Shown: positions 386 to 27,334 of the stretch, piece by piece
Position numbering within the stretch: position 1 is the stretch's first letter
Layout: every line of letters starts with the position of its first letter
Virus record (IMG/VR): IMGVR_UViG_3300009149_000177
Location: 1 to 30,719 of that record
From: a virus
Strand: one strand, 5' to 3'
DNA: 30,719 bases
Translations under genes and position numbers: made by a program
The notes under the pieces: generated by a model
Told to the model about the DNA's origin: nothing
The model's database searches: none
What the model saw: only the letters and a program-made list of their open reading frames with translations

Positions 386-808
386 TTATATCCTAAGATA
401 TGGATTCATTAATATTGGACTATGTTCGATATTCCAGACTTTAAAATAAGTATCAAACAATGACTTGATATTTGCACTCCCATAGGGATTCATTGAATGC
501 ACAATGATTACCTTTGGGAGTTCTTCTTTATTATCCATGCAGTAATCAATAAGCCATTTGGCGCAGTGATAACCTGTTTTTTCAAGATTTTCATCGGTGT
601 AATCAAATTCTTGTTTCTTATAATGAACGTCCATGAGGTCATGGTCGAAAGCAATGACTTCTGGTACACCTTTTAGTTGAATCAATGAAATAAAGGCATA
701 GTAATTCCTGACGATAATCCATTCGGGTTCGAGAAAAATCGGAAGTTCCATGTAACTATATGCAGTTGCAGGTCTCCTGACATCATCAAGGAATAGTTTA
801 TAGCTCAT
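386..808 (-). CDS. Cyclic-phosphate-processing receiver-like (cREC) domain protein
   Basis: A 140-residue protein with the pattern of the cREC family: LFLDDVRRP near the N-terminus, AFDHDL in the middle, a TGYHCAKWLIDYC helix, and VHSMNPYGSANI near the C-terminus. That family is a receiver-fold offshoot proposed, from comparative genomics, to act on 2',3'-cyclic phosphate ends of RNA. The conserved Asp and His residues are present. The start at 808 is chosen because ATGAGCTATAA overlaps the stop of the upstream small gene, implying translational coupling; an in-frame ATG at 841 would add 11 residues. It is the last gene of a three-gene minus-strand operon. A tRNA island lies a few hundred bases away, so a tRNA-repair role is conceivable but is inference. 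Confidence 0.72.
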   Translation of the reverse strand: MSYKLFLDDVRRPATAYSYMELPIFLEPEWIIVRNYYAFISLIQLKGVPEVIAFDHDLMDVHYKKQEFDYTDENLEKTGYHCAKWLIDYCMDNKEELPKVIIVHSMNPYGSANIKSLFDTYFKVWNIEHSPILMNPYLRI

Positions 809-953
809 CGCTTTGCCTTTTATCAATATCGGCTTTACCAAGCCTTCTACGCTTCTTTGAGGTGAATCTTTTTAACCATGCAGCACCTGCGTGTGCTCTC
901 CATTCTCCGTTAATATAGGAGTTTTCTTTACTACCAACTCTTGTCTTAGCCAT
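798..953 (-). CDS. Small basic protein, 51 residues
   Basis: A 51-residue frame from ATG at 953 to TAA at 798-800. It begins MAKTRVGSKENSY, has an aromatic/Ala stretch (GEWRAHAGAAWLKRF), then a very basic segment (TSKKRRRLGK). It overlaps the 3' end of the upstream gene by 8 bases and the start of the cREC gene by 11, a gapless arrangement typical of real co-translated phage genes. The basic tail suggests nucleic-acid or ribosome contact. I do not recognise a family. Confidence 0.6.
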   Translation of the reverse strand: MAKTRVGSKENSYINGEWRAHAGAAWLKRFTSKKRRRLGKADIDKRQSDEL

Positions 954-1185
954 TTCTTAATTCCTTTTTTACATTATTCCAGTTTCTTATCCCCTCTAAG
1001 TCTTTGACATTTATCGTGAATCTCGGAATTGTCCCACCTTCAACCTTTTCCATAATAACGATGCTCACATCATTCTGTAACTGGTCCGGGTCGTACATGG
1101 TTGGAGTAATAATTGGTTCCAACTCGTCAATTTCTAAGGATTTAATATACCCCTTGATTCCTATTAATAGTTCTTCTGCGTTCAT
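946..1185 (-). CDS. Hypothetical protein, 79 residues
   Basis: First gene of the minus-strand operon, starting 18 bases downstream of a promoter-like ACTATTTATT. The protein is acidic at its N-terminus (MNAEELLIGIKGYIKSLEIDELEPI), then has an alternating hydrophobic segment (NDVSIVIMEKVEGG, RFTINVKDL) suggesting beta strands, and ends in a basic tail. No signal peptide or membrane segment. No family recognised. Its stop overlaps the next gene's start. Confidence 0.6.
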   Translation of the reverse strand: MNAEELLIGIKGYIKSLEIDELEPIITPTMYDPDQLQNDVSIVIMEKVEGGTIPRFTINVKDLEGIRNWNNVKKELRNG

Positions 1186-1291: not shown

Positions 1292-1849
1292 ATGAAATTT
1301 AGAAAGATACTTATTGCCGAAGATGACGAAACTAATTACCAGTTAATTCAACAGATATTCGAAAAAACCGGAGCGGAATTGTTGTGGGCAAAAAATGGTA
1401 AAGAAGCCGTGGAACTTTATTCTAAGAACCAAGATATTGATTTGATATTAATGGATATTAAGATGCCAATAATGGGTGGTGAGATGGCTGCAACTAAAAT
1501 AAAAGAAATAAACCCAGATGTTCCAATTATTGGTGTTTCTTCATATGATAAGTATGCATTGGATATTTCATCTGGTCTCGATGCATATGTACAAAAACCG
1601 TTCCTTCCCAATCAATTAGTTAGTGTTATTGAAGGACATATGGAAAACTTAGTTGGTGAATTATTGAAACGAGAAGAAGATAGAGTTAAACAATTGGTTG
1701 ATAACGAGAAAGAAGCTCTTGAAGTATTAAGCGGTGTAGCAGAATTACTTGAATTAACTGATTATGTCAATAAAACAGAATCAATAAAGGTGATGATTAA
1801 ACTTGATGAAATCAAAGATATTTTAAATAAAAAAGGTGAAAGTAGTTAA
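1292..1849 (+). CDS. Response-regulator receiver protein with C-terminal helical module
   Basis: A 185-residue protein. Residues 1-120 form a complete CheY-like receiver: acidic pair D11-D12 (LIAEDDE), phosphoacceptor D55 (LILMDIKMP), Ser at 83-84 (GVSS) and K102 (YVQKP). All catalytic positions are present, so it should accept phosphate. There is no DNA-binding output domain. Instead residues ~122-185 are a charged helical tail (LKREEDR ... EKEALEVLSGVAELLEL) closely matching the C-terminus of the membrane-anchored protein at 26013. The gene is monocistronic with its own promoter motif and diverges from the cREC operon. Receiver function is well supported; the tail's job is unknown, most simply an interaction or oligomerisation module. 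Confidence 0.85.
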   Translation: MKFRKILIAEDDETNYQLIQQIFEKTGAELLWAKNGKEAVELYSKNQDIDLILMDIKMPIMGGEMAATKIKEINPDVPIIGVSSYDKYALDISSGLDAYVQKPFLPNQLVSVIEGHMENLVGELLKREEDRVKQLVDNEKEALEVLSGVAELLELTDYVNKTESIKVMIKLDEIKDILNKKGESS

Positions 1850-1857
1850 TATTAAAA

Positions 1858-2028
1858 ATGCGAAATTGTGAAAAATGTGGACAAGATGAATGGTGGTATG
1901 GAAAAAGAATGGCACTTATTCTCGACCATATTAATGGTGACAACTCCGACCATAGGATAGTGAATCTTAGAATTGTTTGTCCTAACTGCAACGCAACATT
2001 ACCAACACATTGTCGTAAAAATTGTTGA
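1858..2028 (+). CDS. Minimal HNH endonuclease domain (likely remnant)
   Basis: A 56-residue frame starting 9 bases after the receiver gene's stop. It consists only of the catalytic HNH module: CEKCGQDEWW, LILDHINGDN, NLRIVCPNCN, i.e. two Cys pairs and the DH...N...N core. The N-terminal DNA-recognition part seen in the related genes at 3012 and 4156 is missing, and there is no promoter motif in front. The frame ends inside the 3' end of the minus-strand tRNA at 2025-2098. The catalytic residues are intact, so it could still be active, but it looks like the 3' remnant of a homing endonuclease left beside a tRNA. Confidence 0.55.
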   Translation: MRNCEKCGQDEWWYGKRMALILDHINGDNSDHRIVNLRIVCPNCNATLPTHCRKNC

Positions 2029-2098
2029 CCCGACAGGACTCGAACCTGTAATCTTCTCAGTCAAAGTGAGACGTGTTAACCAATTACACTACGGGTCA
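2025..2098 (-). tRNA. tRNA-Gln (anticodon TTG)
   Basis: Cloverleaf on the minus strand: acceptor TGACCCG/CGGGTCA, D stem GTGT/ACAC, anticodon stem TCTCA/TGAGA with loop CTTTGAC (anticodon TTG), T arm ACAGG-TTCGAGT-CCTGT. Discriminator A; CCA is not encoded. The 3' end overlaps the last bases of the HNH remnant on the other strand. Confidence 0.85.
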
Positions 2099-2185
2099 AT
2101 GGCGGGATTTTTGGTCTAATTCTTTGGCGACCTTGGAACTACTAAACCTCGATACAAACAAATCCCAATAAACCTTCTCGTTCAT
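2096..2185 (-). CDS. Possible tiny ORF between tRNAs (29 residues)
   Basis: ATG at 2185 to TGA at 2096-2098, filling the gap between two tRNA genes. The peptide starts MNEKVYWDLFVSRF and continues with SSSKVAKELDQ, which has the flavour of a helix-turn-helix end. No promoter or SD is visible and its stop lies in the first bases of the next tRNA, so it may be chance or a remnant. Confidence 0.25.
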   Translation of the reverse strand: MNEKVYWDLFVSRFSSSKVAKELDQKSRH

Positions 2186-2195
2186 ACCGAACCAA

Positions 2196-2280
2196 TGGTT
2201 GACCTGAAGGGACTCGAACCCTTAAACCTCTCGGTGTCGCCTTCAAAGGGCGATGCATTAGCCAATTCTGCCACAGGTCA
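2196..2280 (-). tRNA. tRNA with TTG anticodon and long (class II-like) variable arm
   Basis: Acceptor TGACCTG/CAGGTCA, D stem GCA/TGC, anticodon stem TCGCC/GGCGA with loop CTTTGAA (TTG by position, i.e. Gln), T arm AAGGG-TTCGAGT-CCCTT, discriminator A followed by an encoded CCA. The region between anticodon and T stems is 13 nt and can form ACC-GAGA-GGT. A long variable arm is normal for Leu/Ser/Tyr, not Gln, so the amino-acid identity is uncertain. Confidence 0.75.
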
Positions 2281-2336
2281 ATATATACTTGACGATAAGT
2301 GCCGAAAAACAACACATTCACCAAAAAATATATTTG

Positions 2337-2409
2337 TTGTCTCGAAGGGACTTGAACCCCTACTCTTCTCCTTCAGAGGGAGTTGTGTTGCCAATTACAC
2401 TACGAGACA
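2337..2409 (-). tRNA. tRNA-Gln (anticodon CTG)
   Basis: Acceptor TGTCTCG/CGAGACA, D stem GTGT/ACAC, anticodon arm CTCC-CTCTGAA-GGAG (anticodon CTG; outermost pair is A-A), T arm AGGGG-TTCAAGT-CCCTT, discriminator A, no encoded CCA. Confidence 0.78.
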
Positions 2410-2486
2410 ATATTAGGGCGGGTGCTCTCGGACGTTACACCTCTTACCTACTCCCATCGGGAGGACAGTGACCCTACTTTACTTTA

Positions 2487-2523
2487 TCATGATAATCTAA
2501 AGTATTACTTCAGATTATCATGA
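2487..2523. repeat. 12-bp perfect inverted repeat
   Basis: TCATGATAATCT at 2487-2498 and AGATTATCATGA at 2512-2523, with a 13-base spacer. It lies just after the end of the broken HNH gene on the minus strand. No T run follows on either strand, so it is not a standard terminator; it may be a processing hairpin or protein-binding site. The 70 bases to its left (2416-2486) hold a 5-bp hairpin CTCCC-ATC-GGGAG and no gene I can support. Confidence 0.6.
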
Positions 2524-2529
2524 ATTAGG

Positions 2530-3012
2530 TTACCCCTTTTTCATGTTTTTCCCACCATGTGTTGGTAGTGTTGCGTTACAATTTGGACACAAAATTCTGA
2601 GATTCTTAAAACGGTGGTCATTACTAATACCATTTTTATGGTCAAGAATCAAACTAATTTTTTCTCCGCACCACCATTCGTCTTATCCACGTTTTTCACA
2701 AATTCGTTTTTTTAATCCTTCGTCATACAATCGATTTTTTAAATGATTAGTGCTCGTATATGTTGAATTCTCCACCATTATTTCAGATAATGGTCTTCGT
2801 TTCAATCTACCCAATTTTTTGTTTACTCTTATCATTTTCTCTTTATTAGTTTCAAAATGACTAATATCAATATCATAGAGTTTAACATATTTTTTTATTG
2901 TACTTCTACTATTACCATGAGTAGACATTCCCAAACCAATTAAAATTTCCGAATAACTTTTCGATTTTTTTACTATGGGTTCAAAATTTTCTTTCTTATA
3001 TTTATTTTTCAT
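2530..3012 (-). pseudogene. HNH homing endonuclease, broken by one in-frame TAA
   Basis: The frame opens at ATG 3012 and reads 109 codons, meets TAA at 2683-2685, and then continues open in the same frame to TAA at 2530-2532 (161 codons in all). The N-terminal part has the recognition pattern shared with the gene at 4156 (KKSKSYSEILIGLGM ... IDISHF). After the stop comes a full HNH core: DEWWCGEKI, LILDHKNG, NLRILCPNCN. The intact relative at 1858 reads CEKCGQDEWW where this gene reads CEKRG*DEWW, so a CAA codon became TAA and one zinc-ligand Cys became Arg. No Met follows for a restart. It still has a promoter motif 17 bases upstream, suggesting recent decay. Confidence 0.82.
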
Positions 3013-3029
3013 TTGTTAATAACGTTTGT

Positions 3030-3039
3030 AATAAATACG
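3030..3039 (-). promoter_or_regulatory. Phage promoter motif (CGTATTTATT) before the broken HNH gene
   Basis: Reads CGTATTTATT on the minus strand, 17 bases before the ATG at 3012. Confidence 0.5.
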
Positions 3040-3057
3040 AACCTAATTTAAAAAAAG

Positions 3058-3132
3058 GGTGGAATGGGGGATTCGAACCCCTCACCGACAGTTTCACGGA
3101 CTGTAATGCTAACCAGTTACACCAAAACCACC
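3058..3132 (-). tRNA. tRNA-His (anticodon GTG), unusual
   Basis: The 5' end GGTGG and 3' end CCACC give the extra G(-1):C73 pair diagnostic of tRNA-His. Anticodon arm ACAGT-CCGTGAA-ACTGT carries GTG. T loop TTCGAAT is normal. Oddities: position 33 is C instead of the near-universal U, and the acceptor stem has two internal T-T mismatches. A run of seven T follows the 3' end, which may aid termination. Confidence 0.72.
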
Positions 3133-3218
3133 ATATATCAAAGAACTATTTACCTGTCGAGCGTTCCCTCTCGAATTCAGATGGTTACTTAATGTAAAGT
3201 ATTACACCACCGTTTTTG

Positions 3219-3293
3219 TCTGAGTGGCAGGATTCGAACCTGCGGACCGATGCTTCCAAGGCATCGTAGTATAGCCATCTGCAATACACCCAG
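3219..3293 (-). tRNA. tRNA-Pro-like (anticodon TGG)
   Basis: Acceptor CTGGGTG/CACTCAG (one G-T), anticodon stem GATGC/GCATC with loop CTTGGAA, T arm GCAGG-TTCGAAT-CCTGC, discriminator A. Anticodon TGG by position. Base 37 is A rather than the G normal for proline tRNAs. Confidence 0.7.
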
Positions 3294-3302
3294 ATAATTT
3301 TG

Positions 3303-3375
3303 TCAACAGGACAGGAATCGAACCTGTACTCAAGTGACCCATGTCACCCGGCTTTCTCCATCTGCCTACCTGTTG
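3303..3375 (-). tRNA. tRNA with abnormal anticodon arm, isotype undetermined
   Basis: Acceptor CAACAGG/CCTGTTG, D arm GGC...GCC and T arm ACAGG-TTCGATT-CCTGT are all good. The anticodon arm is not: GGGTG/CACTT leaves an 8-nt loop (ACATGGGT), and that loop can zip further to GTGAC-ATGG-GTCAC with only four unpaired bases. No placement gives a 7-nt loop with U33. It could be a frameshift-type or non-decoding tRNA, or a decayed gene. Confidence 0.6.
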
Positions 3376-3413
3376 TATGGTATGCTTTCGATACTCTCGT
3401 CTCGATGACGAGC

Positions 3414-3495
3414 AGATTAGGTTGCACCAACCTGTACGTCCTTTAAATCTATGTGGGTTTGCAACCCGCACATAAACCAACTCAGATAACCATCT
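3414..3495 (-). ncRNA. Degenerate tRNA-like element (tRNA-Cys GCA-like)
   Basis: Between two tRNAs the minus strand reads a D-arm-like GGTTATCTGAGTTGGTTTA, then an anticodon-like arm GCGGG-TTGCAAA-CCCAC (anticodon GCA, Cys; one C-A mismatch), then a hairpin AGGT-TGGTGCA-ACCT where the T arm should be. The T loop lacks the TTCRA consensus and the acceptor halves pair only partly. A further hairpin CTCGTC-ATCGA-GACGAG follows at 3396-3412, and GTATGC (3380-3385)/GCATAC (3502-3507) could close the whole block. Either a decayed tRNA-Cys or a structured RNA built from one. Confidence 0.45.
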
Positions 3496-3510
3496 CTACT
3501 GGCATACTTG

Positions 3511-3587
3511 TCGAGTAGGCAGGATTCGAACCTGCGAGTTCTCCACATCCCAAATGTGGCGGGGTGACCTGACTCCCCAACTACTCG
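3511..3587 (-). tRNA. tRNA-Pro (anticodon TGG)
   Basis: Acceptor CGAGTAG/CTACTCG, D stem GGGG/CCCC, anticodon arm CCACA-TTTGGGA-TGTGG (anticodon TGG with G37, as expected for Pro), T arm GCAGG-TTCGAAT-CCTGC, discriminator A. Its 5' seven bases overlap the stop end of the HNH gene upstream. Confidence 0.88.
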
Positions 3588-4937: not shown

Positions 4938-5543
4938 ATGATTGAGACAGATTTTATCAAAATAATAAACGAAGAAATCTCAAGTTTTGATTTTTTAAGT
5001 AATGACGAGCTTCTTAAGGAACAAGAGGTGACTGATTTACTACAAAACCCAGACCTACAAAAGCAATTTATTTGTGACGCACTTTTAGGTAAAAATGATA
5101 AGGTCCGAATCAAAGAAATCTCCGATTCTTATATCCGAGGAAATTGGGACGAAACCGATACCGAGAATGCCGATAGAATAACCTTGATATATAGTGTTGA
5201 TATCGAATATCGTTACGACATGCAAAAAGAACCACTCGAATTTAATCTATATTTCAATAGTGATAAGGTTGATATTGGTGTTGATGGTTGGACTGACCAC
5301 GGTGACTATAATAACGCACCGGAGGGTGAGTCGTGGTACGATGTCTTTGAATGGAACGATATTGATGTGACTCTTCAGACTATTGAAGGTGATGAAATCG
5401 ATTTTGTGGCATTCAACCAAGCTCCCCCACGAATCCAAACCTTATTTATGAGACATTATCTTGAGGGATTTATTGAAAACGAAACGCTGGAAATTAGAAC
5501 TACTGACAAAAAAGATAATATTCTAAACACACAGTATTGCTAA
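4938..5543 (+). CDS. Hypothetical acidic protein, 201 residues
   Basis: First gene of a two-gene plus-strand unit. The N-terminal 45 residues are helical and acidic (IINEEISSFDFL, DELLKEQEVTDLL). The middle (residues ~65-110) alternates hydrophobic and polar residues as in a beta sheet (ITLIYSVDIEYRY, EFNLYFNSDKVDIGV). The C-terminal part is acidic with DVTLQTIEGDEIDFVAF. No membrane segment and no known motif. INE near residue 11 resembles a prohead-protease site but is not proof of one. No family recognised. Confidence 0.65.
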   Translation: MIETDFIKIINEEISSFDFLSNDELLKEQEVTDLLQNPDLQKQFICDALLGKNDKVRIKEISDSYIRGNWDETDTENADRITLIYSVDIEYRYDMQKEPLEFNLYFNSDKVDIGVDGWTDHGDYNNAPEGESWYDVFEWNDIDVTLQTIEGDEIDFVAFNQAPPRIQTLFMRHYLEGFIENETLEIRTTDKKDNILNTQYC

Positions 5544-13330: not shown

Positions 13331-13750
13331 ATGATACACAGAAAATTTAATAAACTAAAATTCAAGAGAAGCTACGTTGGTGGTTCCAAGCAGCGTGAAC
13401 TTGAAATCTTTGCCGAGGTTCAAGGAACTAAGGAAGATAATTCTGAGGTTAATTGGCTTGAATACCGCAGAGTGTTCACGCAATATAGTGATGATGTTCT
13501 TAACATTATATTGAGTTGGAAGCTCGTAATGACTAAGTTGAGTATTGGTTTTCTAATACTTACTGCTCTTGCGTTGTTAATCAACCCCGTCTTGGCAGTA
13601 ATCGGATTATTACTATCCGTGGCATCTCGTTTAACTGCTCAATATTTTAAAAAGAAGGAAAGTAAGAGTATGTCAATGTATGATTATTCTCTGAACATCA
13701 TATTGTCTGCAATAAAAACTGAAGCCGGACTCCATTTTAGTAAGAATTAA
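13331..13750 (+). CDS. Membrane protein with hydrophobic hairpin, 139 residues
   Basis: A basic N-terminus (MIHRKFNKLKFKRSYVGG), a soluble charged segment, then a hydrophobic stretch at residues ~70-99 (LSIGFLILTALALLI-NP-VLAVIGLLLSVASR). The central Asn-Pro suggests either one long helix or a re-entrant hairpin, followed by a basic QYFKKKESK. It could be a holin-like or other inner-membrane protein; no diagnostic motif. It has no AGTATTTATA; instead TACCTTTG (13309-13316), a host-type TAnnTTTG, sits 14 bases before its ATG, so it may use host RNA polymerase, a weak inference from one site. Confidence 0.6.
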   Translation: MIHRKFNKLKFKRSYVGGSKQRELEIFAEVQGTKEDNSEVNWLEYRRVFTQYSDDVLNIILSWKLVMTKLSIGFLILTALALLINPVLAVIGLLLSVASRLTAQYFKKKESKSMSMYDYSLNIILSAIKTEAGLHFSKN

Positions 13751-13760
13751 TCCGGTTCTC

Positions 13761-13770
13761 AGTATTTATA
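13761..13770 (+). promoter_or_regulatory. Phage promoter motif (AGTATTTATA)
   Basis: Exact motif ending 13 bases before the ATG at 13784; an ATG at 13779 reads only seven sense codons. Confidence 0.65.
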
Positions 13771-13783
13771 GTAAAACAATGTT

Positions 13784-14257
13784 ATGGATGAGGATAAACT
13801 AAAATTGATATACATCTTAAAGATTGGATATAACGCAAGGGATGAGGGGCTTTATGAATTTATTTTCTCCCTAGACCCAACAAATATTGATGTCATGGGT
13901 TGGATGTGGGATACAAGTCCTGCCTGTGATAATGCCGAACCCCCTGAAAGTGAATATATTGATGCACTTTATAGTCTAAAAACCAGCAGTCTGAACTTTT
14001 TCTGTTTACATGAAGCCGTTGATAGGGACTATATGCACGGTTATCACACAATTCATGCTCTTGCTTATGAACTAGAACAAGAACCGGATGGTACTTACAG
14101 TGATTATGATAAGATGTTTGAAAGCGAAAAGGATGATTTACCATTACTAGTATTCCATTACGGTATGTCGCTGGCGAAGGTTAAGGATTTATTTAGTTCA
14201 AGGAGTATTATTTTAAAAGATAAAGAATTTGTTGAGACCTCTTCGATAGAGTTCTAG
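13784..14257 (+). CDS. Hypothetical acidic protein, 157 residues
   Basis: A soluble acidic protein. N-terminal segment LIYILKIGYNARDEGLYEFIF, a Trp-rich MGWMWDTSPACDNAEPPE, then HEAVDRDYMHGYHTIHALAYELEQEPDG and a C-terminal DDLPLLVFHYGMSLAKVKDLF. It resembles no family I can name. It is transcribed alone, directly before the structured RNA region, and a promoter motif for that region overlaps its last codons. Confidence 0.62.
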   Translation: MDEDKLKLIYILKIGYNARDEGLYEFIFSLDPTNIDVMGWMWDTSPACDNAEPPESEYIDALYSLKTSSLNFFCLHEAVDRDYMHGYHTIHALAYELEQEPDGTYSDYDKMFESEKDDLPLLVFHYGMSLAKVKDLFSSRSIILKDKEFVETSSIEF

Positions 14258-14265
14258 TATTTATA
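14256..14265 (+). promoter_or_regulatory. Phage promoter motif (AGTATTTATA) for the structured RNA
   Basis: Exact motif overlapping the last base pair of the previous stop codon. No coding start follows until 14449, and another motif lies at 14425, so this one appears to serve the RNA between them. Confidence 0.6.
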
Positions 14266-14270
14266 ATCGC

Positions 14271-14412
14271 CTATCTCACCAGATTAGGGAGAAAAGATTT
14301 CGAGGCACGATAGTTCAAGATAATTACCGTGCCTTGCGTTTAAGTTCATCGCACCATTTGGGTGAAGGAAATCGGAGCACGTTACATCAAGATATGTAGC
14401 GTGCTTTGCTAT
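14271..14412 (+). ncRNA. Tandem duplicated two-hairpin RNA upstream of terminase
   Basis: Two ~72-nt units. Each has a small hairpin opened by CACC (14277 and 14352; the second is CACC-ATTTG-GGTG) and then a long hairpin. Hairpin A (14304-14333): GGCACG-A-TAGTT, loop CAAGAT, AATTA-C-CGTGCC. Hairpin B (14376-14405): AGCACG-T-TACAT, loop CAAGAT, ATGTA-G-CGTGCT. The six-base loops are identical while stem bases change in pairs (outer G-C to A-T; inner G-T to C-G and T-A to A-T). Both are followed by TTGC. Compensatory change with a fixed loop is strong evidence for selected RNA structure and a loop-binding partner. Unit B ends in GCTATTTTT, which may terminate. No ORF. Confidence 0.75.
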
Positions 14413-14424
14413 TTTTAGGTCGAT

Positions 14425-14434
14425 AGTATTTATT
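14425..14434 (+). promoter_or_regulatory. Phage promoter motif (AGTATTTATT) for terminase
   Basis: Ends 14 bases before the ATG at 14449. Confidence 0.62.
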
Positions 14435-14448
14435 ATAAATATTTTAGA

Positions 14449-16548
14449 ATGAATCTTGACCTCGACTTAAATAGTGATTTGGAGAAGAAACCTCAGAAAT
14501 TGAAAATCGAGAAATCGAAAACTGAAGAGAGTTTCCCCGAACACGTACCAGCAGTTCCTTTTGATATGTTAAAGGAGCGACAAAAAGAGGAAGCACGAAA
14601 ACTTGCAAAAAAACTCCGAAAAGCCGGAAGTATTGAACCCGTTGTAATTACCGAAAGTGGTGTTGCTAAAAAAGTCAGTGATTTAACTATTCCAGAACAA
14701 GAAGAAGAATTTGTTAAATGTGCCAGAGACCCAATATACTTCATTGAAACTTATTTAACTGTCTTTGACCAGACTCAAGGTGAGGCGGGAATGATTGTTC
14801 CATTTAAACTTTTTACATTTCAAAAAAGATTGGTGAGAGCACTTAGGAAAAAAGAAAATCGTTTCGTTATTGCCAATAAATATCGTCAGGCAGGAGTTAG
14901 TACAACCACCTGTGCGTTTATCGCATGGTATGTGATGTTTAATAAGAACCGTCAAGCAGCTATTGTTGCGGATAAACTCGAAACCGCTAGGGATGAGTTA
15001 ATGAGTGATGTTGTTGATTTTATTGAGAGTTGTCCATCTTGGCTTAAACCCAAAACCGGAAAAGAATCTGAAGATAATCTTAAGGACACACAAAAGCTAA
15101 AGTATTACGATAATAATTCAAAACTTGGTGCATTTGCCTCAAAATCACTTCGTGGTATGACACCAACGCTGTTGTTCTGGGATGAAACCGCATGGGCAGA
15201 AAAGGGTGATAAGTTCTGGACCTCGGCACAGCCAACACTACAAACTGGTGGACGTGCGATTATGGTAAGCACACCAAATGGTCTCGACCCTGTTTTCTAT
15301 AAACACTTTCAAGGTGCAAGAGAACTTGATGAAAACGGTAAGTCAAAAAATAATTTCCATGCCGTTGAACTCTGGTGGTTTAATGACCCAAGGTACAATA
15401 AGGATTTGGTTTGGCTCAAAAACAAGGGAAAAACCAATGAGATTAGATTGGAAGATAACGGGAAAAGTGATGAGCAACGTATTGCATTGCAGAGTGATGG
15501 TTGGGAAGCCAGTAGTCCTTGGTTTGAAGACCAAGTTAAGAATGCTAATGGTGATATGCGTAAAATCGCACAGGAATTACTGTGCTCATTCCTTGGTTCT
15601 GGTGATAACTTCATTGCCGAAGAATTTTTGAAACGAATTGAGGACCATGAAATTCAGAGCGATTTTAATCAAGAATATCTCGATGGGAATATGTGGGTAT
15701 TTGAGGAAGCCCTGCCGGGTGAAGATTATATTATGTCACTCGATGCCTCACCGGGACACGGTGAAGACTTTTCTACATTGAATATGTTAAAGGTCAAGGA
15801 AATTATTGAAGAAAAGGTTGTGACTAAGAACGGTAAGTCAAAAAAGAAGAAAGTTAGACGAACCGAAGTCGTACAGGTTGCTGAATATTACGGAAAGGTT
15901 ACACCACAGATGCTTGCTGAAATTGCATACCAATACGGGAAGCGTTATAATGACGCATATGCCGTTGTTGATGTCACAGGTGGGTATGGGGTCCAAACTA
16001 TTGAGAAACTGCTGGAATACGGCTATGAGAACATCCATTATGCCGAAGTATCACACAAACCAACACGAGATAGGTTAAGTGGTTATATTAAACAAGGTCA
16101 TAAGACCCTAAGTGATGGTAAAGTTATAAATGTGGATTTGATTCCGGGGTTCTTTATCGGAAACAATCGTGCATCGGTTCTAACCGAGATGCAAAGAGCA
16201 ATCCATTTAGGTGATGTTAAGATTAAGTCATTGAGATTACTTAATGAATTAAAAACATTCGTTACTGTAGCTGGAAGTCGTGTTGCTGACCATAAGCGCA
16301 CCTTTCATGATGATAATATTATGGGATTGGCTACTGGACTCTATGTTTTGAATTTTGATATGGCAAAGTTCAAACAAAGTAAGGGTATTACAGAAAAAAT
16401 GCTCAAATCTATTCTTACAATAAATGATATTAAAGATATTGAGAGTAGACAAAAAATAAAGAGAAAGCCTATGTTTGGTGCAGGTAGCAGCAACCCAGAA
16501 AACCCTTATGGGGCAAATGACTGGTTATTTCAGGGCATAAAACAGTAA
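14449..16548 (+). CDS. Terminase large subunit (gp17-like)
   Basis: A 699-residue DNA-packaging motor. Residues 1-90 are a charged leader. The ATPase has Walker A KYRQAGVSTT (144-153; T4 gp17 has a similar SRQLGMTT) and Walker B LLFWDE (241-246), with the following AW as in T4. The RNase H-like nuclease has D432 (IMSLDASPGHGED), D508 (AVVDVTGG) and D621-D622 (HDDNIMG). All catalytic residues are present. It docks on the portal to cut and pump DNA into the prohead. Unlike many T4-like phages the terminase carries no intein; the portal does. Its small subunit is not recognised in this window. Confidence 0.95.
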   Translation: MNLDLDLNSDLEKKPQKLKIEKSKTEESFPEHVPAVPFDMLKERQKEEARKLAKKLRKAGSIEPVVITESGVAKKVSDLTIPEQEEEFVKCARDPIYFIETYLTVFDQTQGEAGMIVPFKLFTFQKRLVRALRKKENRFVIANKYRQAGVSTTTCAFIAWYVMFNKNRQAAIVADKLETARDELMSDVVDFIESCPSWLKPKTGKESEDNLKDTQKLKYYDNNSKLGAFASKSLRGMTPTLLFWDETAWAEKGDKFWTSAQPTLQTGGRAIMVSTPNGLDPVFYKHFQGARELDENGKSKNNFHAVELWWFNDPRYNKDLVWLKNKGKTNEIRLEDNGKSDEQRIALQSDGWEASSPWFEDQVKNANGDMRKIAQELLCSFLGSGDNFIAEEFLKRIEDHEIQSDFNQEYLDGNMWVFEEALPGEDYIMSLDASPGHGEDFSTLNMLKVKEIIEEKVVTKNGKSKKKKVRRTEVVQVAEYYGKVTPQMLAEIAYQYGKRYNDAYAVVDVTGGYGVQTIEKLLEYGYENIHYAEVSHKPTRDRLSGYIKQGHKTLSDGKVINVDLIPGFFIGNNRASVLTEMQRAIHLGDVKIKSLRLLNELKTFVTVAGSRVADHKRTFHDDNIMGLATGLYVLNFDMAKFKQSKGITEKMLKSILTINDIKDIESRQKIKRKPMFGAGSSNPENPYGANDWLFQGIKQ

Positions 16549-19816: not shown

Positions 19817-20614
19817 ATGGAAAAAATTAACATAGGAATTGCTAATTTGATTATTTCTAACAAATTAAAGGAAGCGTACTTCAACGATAATTTAATTGAA
19901 GAATCAAGAAATATCACAACTGATTTTTTTGATGTTGTTAAGAATTCACCTGTTTTACAGTTGGAGTTTCAAGTTTTTAATAGCTTGGAAAACAAGCATA
20001 TTAGCAATGATTTCCTTATTAAAGAATATGTTGACAACAACATCAGACTATTTGAAACATATACCCGTGAAGAAATCCAAGCCGAACACAAGAAATTAAG
20101 TAACTTCCTTACCAAAAAAGTTATTCCAACAATAAATGAAGCCGACTACGATTTAGATAAAATCAATTTATATCAGGCAATGAGTACTCTCATTATGGAA
20201 TCATTACAAGTTGGTGGAGATGTGGATGTTGACGGAATTCACGAGGCGTTTTCAACCATTATAAACCACATCAAAACCCCAAAGAAGAATTTAATTGAGA
20301 GTGTTGATGTCGAACCCATTAATGAAGAAGTTCTTGAGATTGCTGTCAGAAAATATAATGAGAAGTATGCTGAACTTAATGAAGATGATAAAGATTTACT
20401 ACAGAAACTTATTAAATCATCTGAAACCGAAAAACAAACTCTTCTCGAAAGTATGAAAACTGAGAGTCTCACTATTTTAGAGGGCATGAATAACGATAAA
20501 CTCCAAGACGGTATTACTAAAGCCATCCAGAAAATCAAGGAAATGGTTTATGATGCCAAGAATGTTGACGACAATATTATCGGACTTCACGAACTCAAAA
20601 GAGAATTGCTTTAA
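19817..20614 (+). CDS. Helical protein, probable prohead-core or head-associated protein
   Basis: A 265-residue, largely alpha-helical acidic protein. Many (L/I)xE tripeptides: NLIE|ES, TINE|AD, NLIE|SV, PINE|EV, TLLE|SM, TILE|GM. The C-terminal third is a likely coiled coil (LLQKLIKSSETEKQTLLESMK). It lies immediately after the portal, where T4-like genomes place small core genes (67, 68) before the protease. That position and the LxE richness support a core role but do not prove it. Its last four bases overlap the end of the opposite-strand baseplate gene. Confidence 0.5.
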   Translation: MEKINIGIANLIISNKLKEAYFNDNLIEESRNITTDFFDVVKNSPVLQLEFQVFNSLENKHISNDFLIKEYVDNNIRLFETYTREEIQAEHKKLSNFLTKKVIPTINEADYDLDKINLYQAMSTLIMESLQVGGDVDVDGIHEAFSTIINHIKTPKKNLIESVDVEPINEEVLEIAVRKYNEKYAELNEDDKDLLQKLIKSSETEKQTLLESMKTESLTILEGMNNDKLQDGITKAIQKIKEMVYDAKNVDDNIIGLHELKRELL

Positions 20615-23600
20615 GTGTACTTTTTGATATAATTTTTTTTCATCGCATTTATATCCACATTACTTTTAACACCATTAACCATTCCAGTAGGTGAGAATTG
20701 CCATGCTGTCCAACCATCTTTCCATTCTTTTGGTACTGTTGGTTCGTTAGATTCTGGATTATTGGTAATAGTATCCATATATCTGGCAACCCAGAATGGA
20801 TATTTACTGAAATTATTTAAACCCCATTGATTAATAAGTCCGGTACGACAATAAATCATCACATCATATCCAGCATCTCCCATTGTATTAATGAATGATT
20901 CTGTATATTCATTAATGCTCTGATTAGTATTACTCCATTTATAATTATCACCAGTATTAAAACAATCTTCTTCTAGGTCCAATACAACGGGCAATTCGGG
21001 TTTTTTATCCAATGCATTTAAACGTATAATGAAATTTGTTGCATCATCATAACCATCTTGTACTGGGTCCGTTGTTCTCCCAAATCTAGCAAAGTGATAG
21101 TAACTGAGGTTAATTTTATTTTTTAGAGCATTACTAATACTGGTATTAATATCATAATCAGGTTCATCTCCACTATAATAAGTCATGCCTTCAGTAAGTT
21201 TCATAAACGCAAATGTAACTCCATCTGCTTTTACTTTTTTCCAATCAATAACTCCATTATGGTGAGATACGTCAATACCATACTCACTATCAAGTTGGTC
21301 TAGTCTTACCTTAGACATATTCTTCGCAGTTCGTCCCGTTGACAACGCTCTTGCCGTAAACTCACCTATTGACTGACTATCAAAATTCATAAGCGCAACC
21401 GGGTCTAACACTCTCGGCATGGGATATTTTAATAATTTGGTTCCACTGAAACTAGTTGTCATTTTATTTGCAGTGATGTTGTGTTCAACGCTCAAAATAA
21501 TATATGCACCATTAAATAATGGAATATTTTCGAGTTGGAAATACTGTGTTGGTTGAATCGTTGCGTTTCCGAATCCGGTAACAGTTGCTTTATATGACCT
21601 ATTTTCATATAAATTGTAGAGGTTTTGACCTTTAGGAACACCAGCATCCGGGTTATTATCGCCAGCAAGTCTCGATAGAATCTGGATACTTTCATTGGTT
21701 TCTGGATATTCCTTACTATCGATTTTCATATCAGTAAACATGGATTGGTTTTGTTCTCCAAATCTTACTCTAAATGCTCGGACTTCACTAAACGGGAAAT
21801 CATCGTTTGCTACTTGATTTTGGTTTTCAGTATATTGTGAAGCCGTGGTACTTTTTTCAAAACCTTTCACTCCGGGTTCCGTGATATCGATAATACCATC
21901 ATTCTGGAAACCGTTTCCAGACACTGATGGATAGCTTGAAGTCCCACCAATATACATGCAAACAAAATATGTTTTTTCTTCATCACTAATAGTCCCATCA
22001 TATATTTTAAAGCTGTCGGTCCAAGAAGTTTCGGATTCAAAACTCAAAAAATTCTGAAGTGGGAAAAATTCAAACCCATTTAATGATAATAACTGTGATA
22101 ATACTGTAAATAAACTAACATTTACGTCATCCATCATATTAATTAGGATTTCAGCATTAAGAATTGTCTCGCCAATTGGGTTCATGCCTCTATCGACAAA
22201 TGCAAATAAATCAATCATCCTTTTACCATCAGCATTAAAGGGATAACCCCCAATCCCTTTTGGTTTGGCAGTTCCTGTTAGCCATTTATCATTTATGTTT
22301 TTAAAACTATAGTATAATTGATTTATTACATCAGAATCCCCTTTGCTTCTTTTAAGTTCTTCCTCTTCCTCTTTCACTTCATTATTTCTTTCTACAACAA
22401 GTTGTCCGAGTTTTTGAAATAAAGCTGAGAAATAATTATCATTTATGGTCTTTGCAGCCTCTGCACTAAGCGTTCCAATACCATTTTCATTTATTGTTTT
22501 AAGTGAGGTATAACCACTGGTATTCGGAGTCGGTATTTGAAATGTTATTTGACTATAATTTAATAAGTTTTTCCTAACAATAAGATTTCTTAATACGTTT
22601 CCAAAATAAAGTGCTTTTGTCCCATCAATTTTATCTTCATTCTTTAGTTTATCATTCTCATCGAGAAAATAACGATATAAACTCGCTTTTATTTGAGCAT
22701 GTGTGGGGATATATCCGGGTGAATTGAAATTAATCCCAGCAGTACTGTTCTTTTTAACATCTTTATACATACCGAGAATACCATTCCTAATATTCTTATT
22801 ATATTTACCCATATATGCCGTGTAAGCAGTTTTCATTTCTTGTTTATCTTTTTCAGATAAATAATTTTCAACATCATGTAAATCAGCTAAAATATAGAAC
22901 CCACGATTAGGTAAATTACTACCGGGACCAGTCATGAAAAACGTTTTGATTTCATCAACCCAATCATTTTCAATGGCAGTAAGTAATGCACCTAAATACG
23001 GGGCATAATATGCAGGAACTTCAACGGCTGCTGGAGTGTCAAAAACAATTGAATTCAATGAGTTCGGATATTTATTGAATGGACTTGCGGTATATCCGAA
23101 ATTCGAAAGAATTAATAGCGAACTCATTTCACTACTTCCGGTTATGGTGTCAATAAGAGAAGTGTCATAACTACCTAGAATATCTGACCAATGTGTAGCA
23201 ATATCAAGACTTTGATTTAAAAGACTTTCATTCTTATTTCTGGCGTAAGTAAATGCACTATTACCCTGTTCGTATGCAATTTCTTGTCTCGCAGCATCAT
23301 CAAGCCCCTCACCGGGGAAGTTTGCGTTTCTACTCCCATCAACAAAATATTCTCTAGGACTAAGATATCTGGTGCGAAGTGGAATGCCATCAATGTCATT
23401 AGTCACATAACCCTTTCCGATTTTATCCCTGATATAGATTAAATTATCTTTAGTAAATTCAAAAAAATGTTCAGCAGGGTCGCCACCACTAAATATTTTT
23501 TTATTATCAGTATCACCAAAAAATGCATCAATTGGATTCGAACCTTTCTTCTCTGTAGTTTGAACATCAACATCACCATCAATCACGTAAACCCCCTCAA

Positions 23601-25917
23601 AATTTTCATTATTTTTATCTACATAGACTCTCCCATTAGTACTAATTGATGGGTTAATTAAGAAATATTTCGGGTCGTTTGTTGGAAAGTCATATATATT
23701 AGATGTGACTGATTGAGAGCCATTATTATATGTGAAACTAACGGTTTTAATATGGTCATAGAATTTCTCTAAATTAGAATTATATTGGTTTGCCATAGTT
23801 TGTACCGCACTTATGTTTTTCGGTGACACCAGTGCAGATGCTAAGTTAATTGCTTCGGCATTCGCATATAATTTCACATATGCCTCATTAACAATGACGT
23901 TTTGCTTATCTTTTCTTCTTTCATCTACTGGTTTTACGTAGAATGCTTCAGGTAGTGTGCCCTGAGTCAACATATAGAAACGTTTCATAAGTATTTGAAG
24001 CGTTTCACCTCTTATATCATCGCTGATGCCAAGATATGGACTTCTCGGAGTCGCCCCTCCAAGTGTTGAATCAAATGGAGATATTGGTATCCATTTATAT
24101 GTACCATCATCGGCTTGGTCATCTCTCAAATCATATTCTTGTCTTAACCTTCTTTGTTGCAGAAACGTATCGATGAAATCGTTAACGAGTTTCATTTCGG
24201 GGAATTGAACCTTTTTACTTAAATCAATAGGTGCAATTCGTTCTTCTCTACCATCTAGGTCTCGATTAACTATAAGGGGAAAAGAATATATTTCGGTGTC
24301 TGGATTTTCGGCATAACCACCATCACCTAAAATAATTTTTTTATTCGCATCGTTTTGGTGAGAATCGTATGCATCTTCAGATACAGTTCTTAATTTAGAA
24401 AAGAAGGTATCGACATCATCTAAAATAATCTTAAATATATTATATATCGAAGGAACCATCCCCAATTCTTCAGATACCATATTATTAATTGTAGTTGTTA
24501 TATTCATGGCAAGAGTATTTCTCTCCTTTTCTAATGCCACTTTTTGTTTGAATATCTTATAATAATATTTGCTAATATCTATCCCATAATAACTAACGTA
24601 TCCATCTGAGGAAGCCAATAATTGGGGATTTTGACTTATTTTTTTAGTGTCAACATTATAGCTATTGAGAAATTCTTTAGGGTCTTTAATATCATCATTT
24701 TCATATGTAATTGATGTTATTGAATCAACGCTACTTTTCAATAATTCTTTATAGGCAGTTAATGCATCATTAAAACCCTTATTGTTTTTAGTTTGGGGGT
24801 TTGCAAAATATTGTGGAGATGGTGCTGTATATGTTGGAGATGTCTCGGTATTATTACCTACTTTAATGCCAGTACCTGTAAGATAAGTAATAAAAAGTTT
24901 TTGACTTATCATACTTTTTTCACCGCTTGATTGTTCGGTTCCAATTACAGTATCAAATTCAGATATGGTATCGATTGAAGTTAGTTTTTCATCAGGGACC
25001 GAATTGATTTTCGGAAATATGTATTGAGTTGGTTCTCTCCAGACCAAATATGGTCTGCCCGGTACATTTAATGCTTCATTATCTATAAAATGATTTAAAA
25101 TCCCGTTAGGTCCATTAATCTCATTAATTTTTTCGAGGTCATCTAATACTTGTTCGTATCGTTTATTATCTTCATCGGATTCTAGTCTTTCAGAAACGGC
25201 TTTATATAAATTCTTTAGTTTTAAAATTAATTCATATGTATTTCTAGGTTCCTCATTAGGTGCTGGTATCATTGATTCCGCATCATCAATCAATGGTGCA
25301 TTTACTATGTACCTGAATAAAATATCAGACAATGGTGCAAATGTCATGGCAATAAAATTAGCATCAATGATAAAATTACCATTTGCTGAACTAAATTCTG
25401 ATGTATATTTAACAAGATGTAATCTATATGTTACTGGTTTACCATAATATCCTTTTACGGTTAGTGTGAATATTGGTGGAGGAAAATCAAATAATATCCT
25501 ATATGGAGAATCGGCTTGATTAAAAAATGCCAAACCTCTGAGGTCCACAAATTGAATGCTGACTTGAGGAATGAATGAGGAATTGATTACGATTTTAATA
25601 TTATTAATTCCAAAACCTTCGTAATGAGTATTGTTGCCAGTACTACCATCATAGTAGTTAGTCGTGAAGTTTAAATAATTTGGATTATCCCCTGTTTCAT
25701 CCTGATTATTTCCGATAAAATTTACTTTCTTGGATGATGTGGATTTTACATCGCTGTTTATAATAACTGTCCTACTCTTACTTTGTGCTGTTAACTCAGC
25801 AAATATGTACATGTCTTCGTAATCTGGAATTCCATTAACCACATCCGTGTTGATATTTACACTGTTAGGTTCTACCAACATTACATTACCATTAGTCTTA
25901 ATTATCTCTGGTCCCAT
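20611..25917 (-). CDS. Giant baseplate/tail protein with C-terminal GH25 muramidase
   Basis: A 1768-residue protein. The first ~230 residues are strand-rich (IKIVINSSFIPQVSIQFVDLRG, FPPPIFTLTVKGYYGKPVTYRLHLVKY), like a baseplate-hub or tail-tube-type domain. The centre has long helical and mixed segments. Residues ~1380-1500 (PIGETILNAEILINMMDDVNV onward) are again strand-rich and end in SVEHNITANKMTTSFSGTKLL, typical of phage tail hub proteins. Residues ~1546-1768 are a GH25 lysozyme: YGIDVSHHNG, FAFMKLTEG, SYYHFAR, LPVVLDLEED (catalytic Asp/Glu) and WTAWQFSPTG. It probably cuts peptidoglycan during infection. It sits alone on the minus strand inside the head cluster, with its own promoter motif. 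Confidence 0.85.
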   Translation of the reverse strand: MGPEIIKTNGNVMLVEPNSVNINTDVVNGIPDYEDMYIFAELTAQSKSRTVIINSDVKSTSSKKVNFIGNNQDETGDNPNYLNFTTNYYDGSTGNNTHYEGFGINNIKIVINSSFIPQVSIQFVDLRGLAFFNQADSPYRILFDFPPPIFTLTVKGYYGKPVTYRLHLVKYTSEFSSANGNFIIDANFIAMTFAPLSDILFRYIVNAPLIDDAESMIPAPNEEPRNTYELILKLKNLYKAVSERLESDEDNKRYEQVLDDLEKINEINGPNGILNHFIDNEALNVPGRPYLVWREPTQYIFPKINSVPDEKLTSIDTISEFDTVIGTEQSSGEKSMISQKLFITYLTGTGIKVGNNTETSPTYTAPSPQYFANPQTKNNKGFNDALTAYKELLKSSVDSITSITYENDDIKDPKEFLNSYNVDTKKISQNPQLLASSDGYVSYYGIDISKYYYKIFKQKVALEKERNTLAMNITTTINNMVSEELGMVPSIYNIFKIILDDVDTFFSKLRTVSEDAYDSHQNDANKKIILGDGGYAENPDTEIYSFPLIVNRDLDGREERIAPIDLSKKVQFPEMKLVNDFIDTFLQQRRLRQEYDLRDDQADDGTYKWIPISPFDSTLGGATPRSPYLGISDDIRGETLQILMKRFYMLTQGTLPEAFYVKPVDERRKDKQNVIVNEAYVKLYANAEAINLASALVSPKNISAVQTMANQYNSNLEKFYDHIKTVSFTYNNGSQSVTSNIYDFPTNDPKYFLINPSISTNGRVYVDKNNENFEGVYVIDGDVDVQTTEKKGSNPIDAFFGDTDNKKIFSGGDPAEHFFEFTKDNLIYIRDKIGKGYVTNDIDGIPLRTRYLSPREYFVDGSRNANFPGEGLDDAARQEIAYEQGNSAFTYARNKNESLLNQSLDIATHWSDILGSYDTSLIDTITGSSEMSSLLILSNFGYTASPFNKYPNSLNSIVFDTPAAVEVPAYYAPYLGALLTAIENDWVDEIKTFFMTGPGSNLPNRGFYILADLHDVENYLSEKDKQEMKTAYTAYMGKYNKNIRNGILGMYKDVKKNSTAGINFNSPGYIPTHAQIKASLYRYFLDENDKLKNEDKIDGTKALYFGNVLRNLIVRKNLLNYSQITFQIPTPNTSGYTSLKTINENGIGTLSAEAAKTINDNYFSALFQKLGQLVVERNNEVKEEEEELKRSKGDSDVINQLYYSFKNINDKWLTGTAKPKGIGGYPFNADGKRMIDLFAFVDRGMNPIGETILNAEILINMMDDVNVSLFTVLSQLLSLNGFEFFPLQNFLSFESETSWTDSFKIYDGTISDEEKTYFVCMYIGGTSSYPSVSGNGFQNDGIIDITEPGVKGFEKSTTASQYTENQNQVANDDFPFSEVRAFRVRFGEQNQSMFTDMKIDSKEYPETNESIQILSRLAGDNNPDAGVPKGQNLYNLYENRSYKATVTGFGNATIQPTQYFQLENIPLFNGAYIILSVEHNITANKMTTSFSGTKLLKYPMPRVLDPVALMNFDSQSIGEFTARALSTGRTAKNMSKVRLDQLDSEYGIDVSHHNGVIDWKKVKADGVTFAFMKLTEGMTYYSGDEPDYDINTSISNALKNKINLSYYHFARFGRTTDPVQDGYDDATNFIIRLNALDKKPELPVVLDLEEDCFNTGDNYKWSNTNQSINEYTESFINTMGDAGYDVMIYCRTGLINQWGLNNFSKYPFWVARYMDTITNNPESNEPTVPKEWKDGWTAWQFSPTGMVNGVKSNVDINAMKKNYIKKYT

Positions 25918-26012: not shown

Positions 26013-26423
26013 ATGATATTTCTCGAAATAGCTAATCATACCCATCCCATTTGGCATAACGTATTCTTTTACCTGTTTGTCAGTGTTTTTATCCTAGCTA
26101 CTATGGGGATAATGACGATAGTGGGTGCTTTAAAGAGAAAAAACAAAAACTCAGAATTGATAGAGCATCAATATGTTGCAAGAATTGATAATATCCGAAA
26201 AGAAAATGAGGAGAAACTCGAAAATATTAGAGTTGAAATGCTTAAGCGTGAGGAAGAAAGAAGTCGTCAATGGATGGAAAGCGAGAAAGAAACTCTCCAT
26301 GTCTTAAATGGGGTCTCAAATCTTTTGGACCTTAATGATAGATTCGATAAGAGTAGATTAGATGATATCTCAGAAGTTGTGAATGAAATCAATAATAAGA
26401 TTGAAAATTTAAAACAGAAATAA
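26013..26423 (+). CDS. Membrane-anchored coiled-coil protein sharing a module with the receiver protein
   Basis: A 136-residue protein. A short lumenal N-terminus (MIFLEIANHTHPIWHN) is followed by one transmembrane helix at ~17-40 (VFFYLFVSVFILATMGIMTIVG), then basic KRKNKN, so the C-terminus should face the cytoplasm. Residues ~50-90 are a charged coiled coil. Residues ~75-136 (LKREEERSRQ ... EKETLHVLNGVSNLLDL) match the C-terminal tail of the receiver protein at 1292 almost position by position. It starts a plus-strand unit ahead of the prohead protease. A role in anchoring or signalling at the membrane is plausible; a T4-like prohead initiation anchor is another possibility. Neither is shown. 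Confidence 0.65.
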   Translation: MIFLEIANHTHPIWHNVFFYLFVSVFILATMGIMTIVGALKRKNKNSELIEHQYVARIDNIRKENEEKLENIRVEMLKREEERSRQWMESEKETLHVLNGVSNLLDLNDRFDKSRLDDISEVVNEINNKIENLKQK

Positions 26424-26617: not shown

Positions 26618-27334
26618 ATGTTAAAGAAACAATTAAGTAAGATATTAGAGGAAGGCGAAACGGGGTTCGGTATATTAATTGAGCACGATGCCGGATATTT
26701 GGGTTCTGATATTAATAAGGATATTCTTAATGAAGGTTTTGAACTTAAACCCAATGAACCAGTTCTAGTTAACTGTATTCTACAGAAATGGGGAGTTAAG
26801 AATAAGAACGGAAGAATCTACCCACAAGACGTTTTAGTTCCACAGGTTGAGGCTTATCAGGAACTGGTAATGTCGAACAGTGCGGTATCTGAAGCCGACC
26901 ATCCCGATTCGAGTATTATTTCCCTACAAAACATCTCACATATGATTACTAAGATGTGGTGGGGAAAAGGTGATAAGGAAAATATCTTATATGGTCAGTT
27001 AAAACTTATTGTATCTCCGGGTTATATCAAAATGGGTATAGTTTCGGTAATTGGTGACAAAATCGTTCTCTACCTCCAAAATAAAATCAAGCTCGGTATT
27101 TCAAGCCGTGGTGTTGGAACCCTGAAAGAAATTAATGGTGAGAATATGGTTCAGGATGATTTCGAACTAATTGGTTTTGACCTCGTGGCAACTCCAAGCA
27201 CACCCGGAGCATATCTTTTCCCTGAGAAACAGGGTGACATGAGTTTCGGTGAAGGTTATACTAAGAAAAACGGCATATACCTTAAAGAAGAAGACGATAA
27301 GAGAAAGAATGCAATCAATAAATTCTTGTTATAA
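26618..27334 (+). CDS. Prohead protease (gp21-like)
   Basis: A 238-residue serine protease of the T4 gp21 / herpes-assemblin type. Probable catalytic residues are H95 (SEADHP), S162 or S163 (KLGISSRGVG) and D188 (IGFDLVATPSTPGAY), in the expected order. The N-terminal region has DILNE|GFEL, a possible self-processing site. In T4 this enzyme is packed in the prohead, removes the scaffold and trims capsid and internal proteins at (L/I)xE. Its position before scaffold and capsid genes is the T4 order 21-22-23. Confidence 0.92.
   Translation: MLKKQLSKILEEGETGFGILIEHDAGYLGSDINKDILNEGFELKPNEPVLVNCILQKWGVKNKNGRIYPQDVLVPQVEAYQELVMSNSAVSEADHPDSSIISLQNISHMITKMWWGKGDKENILYGQLKLIVSPGYIKMGIVSVIGDKIVLYLQNKIKLGISSRGVGTLKEINGENMVQDDFELIGFDLVATPSTPGAYLFPEKQGDMSFGEGYTKKNGIYLKEEDDKRKNAINKFLL

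Follow-up and report, generated by a model that had tools for sequence, protein, structure and literature searches.

A predicted phage response regulator and a membrane protein of T4-like phages share a helical C-terminal module

Why should a phage encode a receiver protein whose C-terminal tail recurs on a membrane protein 24 kb away in the same genome? The question was raised by an initial annotation of the window, by which we mean the whole stretch of DNA analysed here, the complete IMG/VR record IMGVR_UViG_3300009149_000177 of 30,719 bases. The annotation proposed that a soluble, phospho-accepting protein and a membrane-anchored protein end in one homologous module, a shared oligomerisation helix, and that both form a two-part device in which phosphorylation controls recruitment to the membrane. 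The window comes from a T4-like phage, as Pfam identified a gp17-type terminase, gp20 portal, gp21 protease and gp23 capsid; the product coded between gp21 and gp23 is taken, from its place only, as a gp22-like scaffold. The portal gene (16633-19746) contains an intein with a LAGLIDADG part, and a tRNA cluster (Gln x3, His, Pro x2, one unassigned) with interspersed HNH-like ORFs is located at 2024-3587 on the minus strand. The following features, including the receiver (REC) protein and the single-membrane-helix (TM) protein, are referred to throughout:

386..841, minus strand: cREC gene (PF20274, E 1.3e-20; conserved flank), left-hand marker of the slot holding the REC-module gene
946..1185, minus strand: small conserved gene, left-hand neighbour of the REC-module gene
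1292..1849, plus strand: REC-module protein, 185 aa, predicted soluble response regulator (PF00072, E 6e-22; five relatives of the same architecture; model pLDDT 91)
1301..1630, plus strand: receiver domain, residues 4-113, with D11, D12, D55, S83/S84 and K102 (Pfam, invariant residues, Foldseek)
1643..1846, plus strand: helical module at the REC C terminus (alignment, shuffle, profile and residue-conservation evidence)
4938..5543, plus strand: conserved gene, right-hand marker of the REC-module slot
20611..25917, minus strand: large divergent gene, conserved neighbour left of the TM gene
26013..26423, plus strand: TM-module protein, 136 aa (57 homologous contigs; hydropathy, charge; model pLDDT 88)
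26061..26129, plus strand: membrane helix, about residues 17-39 (hydropathy peak 2.3; positive charge on the C side)
26217..26417, plus strand: helical module of the TM protein (profile and conservation evidence)
26618..27334, plus strand: gp21-like prohead protease (PF03420, E 3.2e-18), conserved neighbour right of the TM gene

A search of the genome against itself recovered the likeness between the two tails (E 9.8e-11, 43% identity). The gapless alignment over ~50 residues was confirmed, and the likeness was found to span a whole helical module of ~63 residues. Its alignment score lies 16 SD over plain shuffles and 11 SD over shuffles that keep the heptad phase. A profile built from the modules of 40 TM proteins, with no REC sequence included, retrieved the REC tail (E 1.5e-18) and matched no third protein among the window ORFs. 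In the opposite direction a REC-tail profile recovered the TM protein (E 5e-21), and hhalign comparison of the two profiles paired the modules at 99.7% (E 4e-26). Among the ORFs of the loci searched, the module profiles gave nothing above the inclusion threshold besides TM and REC-module proteins. Both tails are modelled as long charged helices, as would be expected if the likeness were that of a generic charged coiled coil, the outcome that the annotation itself had named as a possible refutation. However, given the excess over heptad-keeping shuffles and profile tests at E 1e-18 or better, neither heptad pattern nor composition accounts for the likeness, and we rejected this explanation as having next to no chance of being right. 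By these comparisons the likeness is real and specific, and the tails of the REC and TM proteins are genuinely homologous.

The window REC tail is a diverged copy of the module and lacks the tryptophan that 40 TM proteins have without exception. Gene conversion between the REC and TM modules is unlikely because, among REC tails, the window's own scores lowest against the window's own TM protein. The TM protein and its module belong to no family in Pfam, PDB or PADLOC; NCBIfam gave nothing above cut-off and PHROGs weak matches only (best E 0.0084). No relatives of the module were found in the PDB, where one designed coiled coil scored E 0.65, and a search of defence-system families returned only weak REC-level matches. 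Kinship of the module to gp21, the scaffold or the 19817 product was discarded, as it came down to a 10-residue match at chance level.

Sequence and modelled fold identify the 1292 product as a response regulator: it has the receiver profile and fold of PF00072 members, together with their acidic pocket, their phospho-accepting Asp and their S/T and Lys residues. In the AlphaFold model (mean pLDDT 91) a normal receiver is followed by a single helix from residue 106 to 184, in which alpha5 continues into the module, and Foldseek confirmed the REC fold with many receivers, EutV among the matches. The output module is unnamed and falls in no ANTAR or DNA-binding family; ANTAR (PF03861) gave no match in the protein, the tail of which is modelled as one long helix. 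The same architecture occurs in six contigs, namely the window, G001 (L003), G051 (L140), G045 (L137/L142), G050 (L167) and G049 (L203), and the other five proteins show 47-57% identity to that of the window. All six conserve D11, D55 and K102 and have either S or T as the switch residue; phosphorylation has therefore probably been retained as an option. A phage histidine kinase was not found in 16 phage records; three HATPase matches were rejected as candidates, being rIIA-like by eye. A phrase search of 5.4 million open papers found no phage- or virus-encoded response regulator, two-component system or histidine kinase.

All TM-module proteins have one N-terminal hydrophobic stretch as judged by hydropathy. 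Positive charge flanks it on the C side in 39 of 40 proteins, and its N side is near neutral or negative; from this charge pattern the module should be cytoplasmic, and the predicted topology is N out, C in the cytoplasm. The AlphaFold model (mean pLDDT 88, pTM 0.43) shows an unbroken helix from residue 17 to 110, running from the membrane stretch into the module, and a further helix from 113 to 135. Residues, hydropathy and profiles thus bear out the claim that one homologous module sits on a phospho-competent soluble receiver and on a protein with a single membrane helix, and both have a continuous helix in their models and an intact packing core, which fits a shared oligomerisation helix.

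Scans of IMG/VR found the TM-module protein in 57 other contigs, counted by contig name, with G056 added later. A scan of a species-genome collection gave only one further contig, in a Bacteroidota MAG and with phage gene order, so that a host origin of the module was rejected; among the named phages of INPHARED the TM protein obtained a single weak match, covering 23% of the protein and located inside a terminase gene. In every TM-module contig that reaches far enough, the gene is flanked by the large divergent gene on one side and by the gp21-like protease on the other, with the scaffold and capsid genes after the protease. The large gene is taken by eye as a tail gene, and the C terminus of its product resembles, again by eye only, a GH25-type lysozyme. 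Two TM-module proteins (L006:10001-10765 and L007:10001-10768) carry a PAS domain C-terminal to the module, above both curated cut-offs in L007 and just under them in L006; these fusions form one sublineage, which we refer to as the sister lineage, and their PAS part had no match in the PDB by sequence. The L006 capsid gene (13373-15096) is split over two overlapping frames, likely due to a frameshift in the contig. Helical repeats are present at the C terminus of the TM-module proteins of L036, L039 and L040, with tandem repeats of ~10 residues in L036:10001-10684 and L040:9875-10444.

REC-module genes were found in one slot, beside the cREC gene or the small 946 gene and before a homologue of the 4938 gene; in G045 neither left flank gene is seen and another conserved gene stands there. 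The product of the cREC gene is a cyclic-phosphate processing receiver; the gene directly adjoins the REC gene and is kept in most relatives. Near the slot, a REC-SpoIIE phosphatase protein is encoded in G012, G062 and G063; such PP2C-type genes lie at L139:1492-2703 and, beside cREC, at L221:604-1854 (minus strand), and a gene for a repeat-rich helical protein adjoins the REC-SpoIIE gene. Short RECs without the module are present in the relatives G041, G046, G047, G060, G065 and G066. Similar short N-terminal helices (FIKIINEEI.. or RLFEVMGRLDKTFKP..) were noticed in the window 4938, 6207 and 9042 products and their homologues in L140 and L142; by eye they look like capsid-targeting peptides of packaged proteins. 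The 6207 product itself is ADP-ribosyltransferase-like by eye, with no Pfam match.

On the tree of the 4938 protein all six REC-module contigs fall in one 16-row group (91/93); presence and absence of the REC-module gene require three changes, which could be a single gain followed by loss on two occasions. On the module tree, which has few columns, a branch (99/95) separates the four REC tails then known from 40 TM tails. A single fusion or a single old split, and not repeated copying, therefore seems to be the origin of the REC modules. We saw no matched change between REC and TM modules within a phage. Both loci are visible in ~20 contigs (~16 distinct), and just two of these, the window and G045, have the REC-module gene; they are the only REC-module contigs reaching the TM locus, and TM-module is present in both. 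Many relatives of 150-350 kb carry TM-module but no module-bearing REC. Thus the part of the earlier interpretation concerning module homology and the anatomy of both proteins stands, but a standing two-part device does not: with 2 of ~20 contigs holding both genes, most relatives have TM-module only, which is largely the single-partner pattern that the annotation had set against its own proposal. The TM gene is not universal either. In G052, G057, G059 and G060 the head cluster contains none, tail-gene and protease frames being only ~60-190 bases apart, and no module match was found anywhere in G052, G057 and G060 (325-340 kb). The prohead proteases of these last three look interrupted by an intein-like insert.

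Invariant in all 40 TM modules are R73, E80, Q86, W87, E89, S90, E91, E93, L95 and L98. In the REC modules (TM numbering) L98, G100, V101, L105, L123, E125, I126 and E91 are kept in 6/6 and E80, E89 and E93 in 5/6, W87 in 4/6, Q86 and S102 in 2/6 each, and R73 and R85 in none. REC modules retain the packing core and have lost part of the polar surface conserved in TM proteins; we infer that this pattern agrees more readily with an oligomer interface common to both proteins than with a common docking surface.

Starting from the observed homology, anatomy, gene loci, phyletic pattern and residues, we tentatively favor, while holding it short of probable, that the 1292 gene encodes an accessory phage response regulator with a copy of the TM module as its output; the regulator would be switched by host phosphorylation and would join or antagonize the TM complex. 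With no histidine kinase found in the phage records, the source of the signal would have to be the host or acetyl phosphate, and D55 would most likely be phosphorylated by a host kinase or acetyl phosphate. Phosphorylation and dimerisation are expected of REC from its family; modification of D55 could change receiver dimerisation and in turn the pairing of the module helices. The switched protein might then mix into the TM-protein oligomer, or pull it apart, via the shared core of L98, G100, V101, L105, L123 and I126, and a host signal would thereby be coupled to whatever the TM protein does. That the two proteins touch, and in which direction the contact acts, is our guess; recruitment to the membrane under control of phosphorylation, as first proposed, is possible. 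In favor of this regulator we count the specific module homology, the run of alpha5 and of the membrane helix into the module, the core shared in 6/6, TM-module in both testable REC-module contigs, the retained phosphorylation residues, a second signalling domain, PAS, on the TM form of the sister lineage and the precedent of EutV (PMC3369931). Against it stand the rare co-occurrence, the separate module clades, the low score of the window REC tail against its own TM protein and the missing phage kinase.

The same clades, together with the loss of several TM-conserved polar residues, the distance of 24 kb between the genes and the occurrence of TM alone in most relatives, would also be explained by domain shuffling without contact: the REC gene may have taken the module as a ready-made dimerisation helix, and both proteins would self-assemble and work apart. 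The core is strictly kept in all six REC copies, however, and both testable REC-module contigs have TM-module, although the latter is a weak argument as TM is so common; we regard shuffling as rather unlikely. It is more doubtful still that the module docks a common third partner, one phage or host protein for which the phosphorylated REC form competes or which it redirects. The ten invariant, mostly polar or aromatic residues of the TM module exceed the needs of a coiled coil, and E91 as well as, in five of six copies, E80, E89 and E93 survive in REC. But R73 and R85 are lost throughout and Q86 and W87 in part, the module is unlike the neighboring head proteins, and candidates for such a partner were not found.

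Finally, the TM protein might nucleate prohead assembly at the membrane, as a functional substitute for gp40 or in the place of gp67/gp68, with REC as a regulator of head assembly or a decoy; this, too, we consider improbable. In T4, prohead assembly begins at the membrane, to which the portal is bound, and is assisted by gp40 (PMC9958956). The TM gene has a fixed position beside the gp21, scaffold and capsid genes, which is the place of 67/68 in T4, and the gp40 profile (PF11113) matched nothing in 26 records (T4 positive control E 4e-30). On the other hand, the TM protein is unlike gp67, gp68 and gp22 of T4, against which its profile gave no significant match, and the four relatives without the TM gene also lack gp40. 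Replacement of gp40 by the TM protein was discarded, gp40 being absent with and without TM, so that the pattern is uninformative. Because the TM gene is missing in G052, G057, G059 and G060, a nucleator role cannot be essential across the whole group.

The regulators described here have as output a phage-specific module and not a borrowed DNA-binding domain. The kinship of their tails with that of the TM protein suggests that, in a group of T4-like phages, a host signal may be wired to phage activity at the cell membrane. Should the module connect regulator and TM protein, the pair would offer a compact, experimentally tractable case of a host phospho-signal acting on a membrane complex of the phage. 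More broadly, though doubtfully, the phage could couple host two-component signalling to a membrane-bound complex of its own by giving a phospho-switch and a membrane anchor one common oligomerisation module, with PAS on the membrane partner as alternative input in the sister lineage; this would be a new way to read the host state, perhaps timing assembly or lysis. Even without a link to REC, the TM-module proteins, encoded next to the head genes at a constant position in 57 metagenomic phage contigs, represent an unnamed family and are worth assaying.

Compared with known systems, the TM gene holds the same place as the T4 genes for gp67/gp68, between gp20 and gp21, and the role proposed for its product resembles that of gp40, which acts in the membrane-bound start of the prohead; it differs in showing no likeness to gp67/gp68, in the absence of PF11113 and in being missing from some relatives. 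The neighboring cREC is named for a receiver fold, but it is a different family, described as linked to NAD+/ADP-ribose or cyclic-nucleotide processing and as never part of two-component signalling (PMC7824862). Single-domain CheY-like and hybrid-kinase receivers share receiver residues and fold with the 1292 protein, and LuxN and BarA are among the hybrid-kinase receivers that it matches in NCBIfam; the 1292 protein, in contrast, is phage-encoded, carries the extra module and comes with no kinase found in the phage records. Also close are response regulators whose coiled-coil output continues alpha5, such as EutV (REC, coiled coil and ANTAR), which dimerises via its coiled-coil part upon phosphorylation (PMC3369931): the 1292 protein has the same REC fold, a similar length and a helix continuing alpha5, whereas in place of an ANTAR match it has one long modelled helix, the module of which is homologous to a phage membrane protein.
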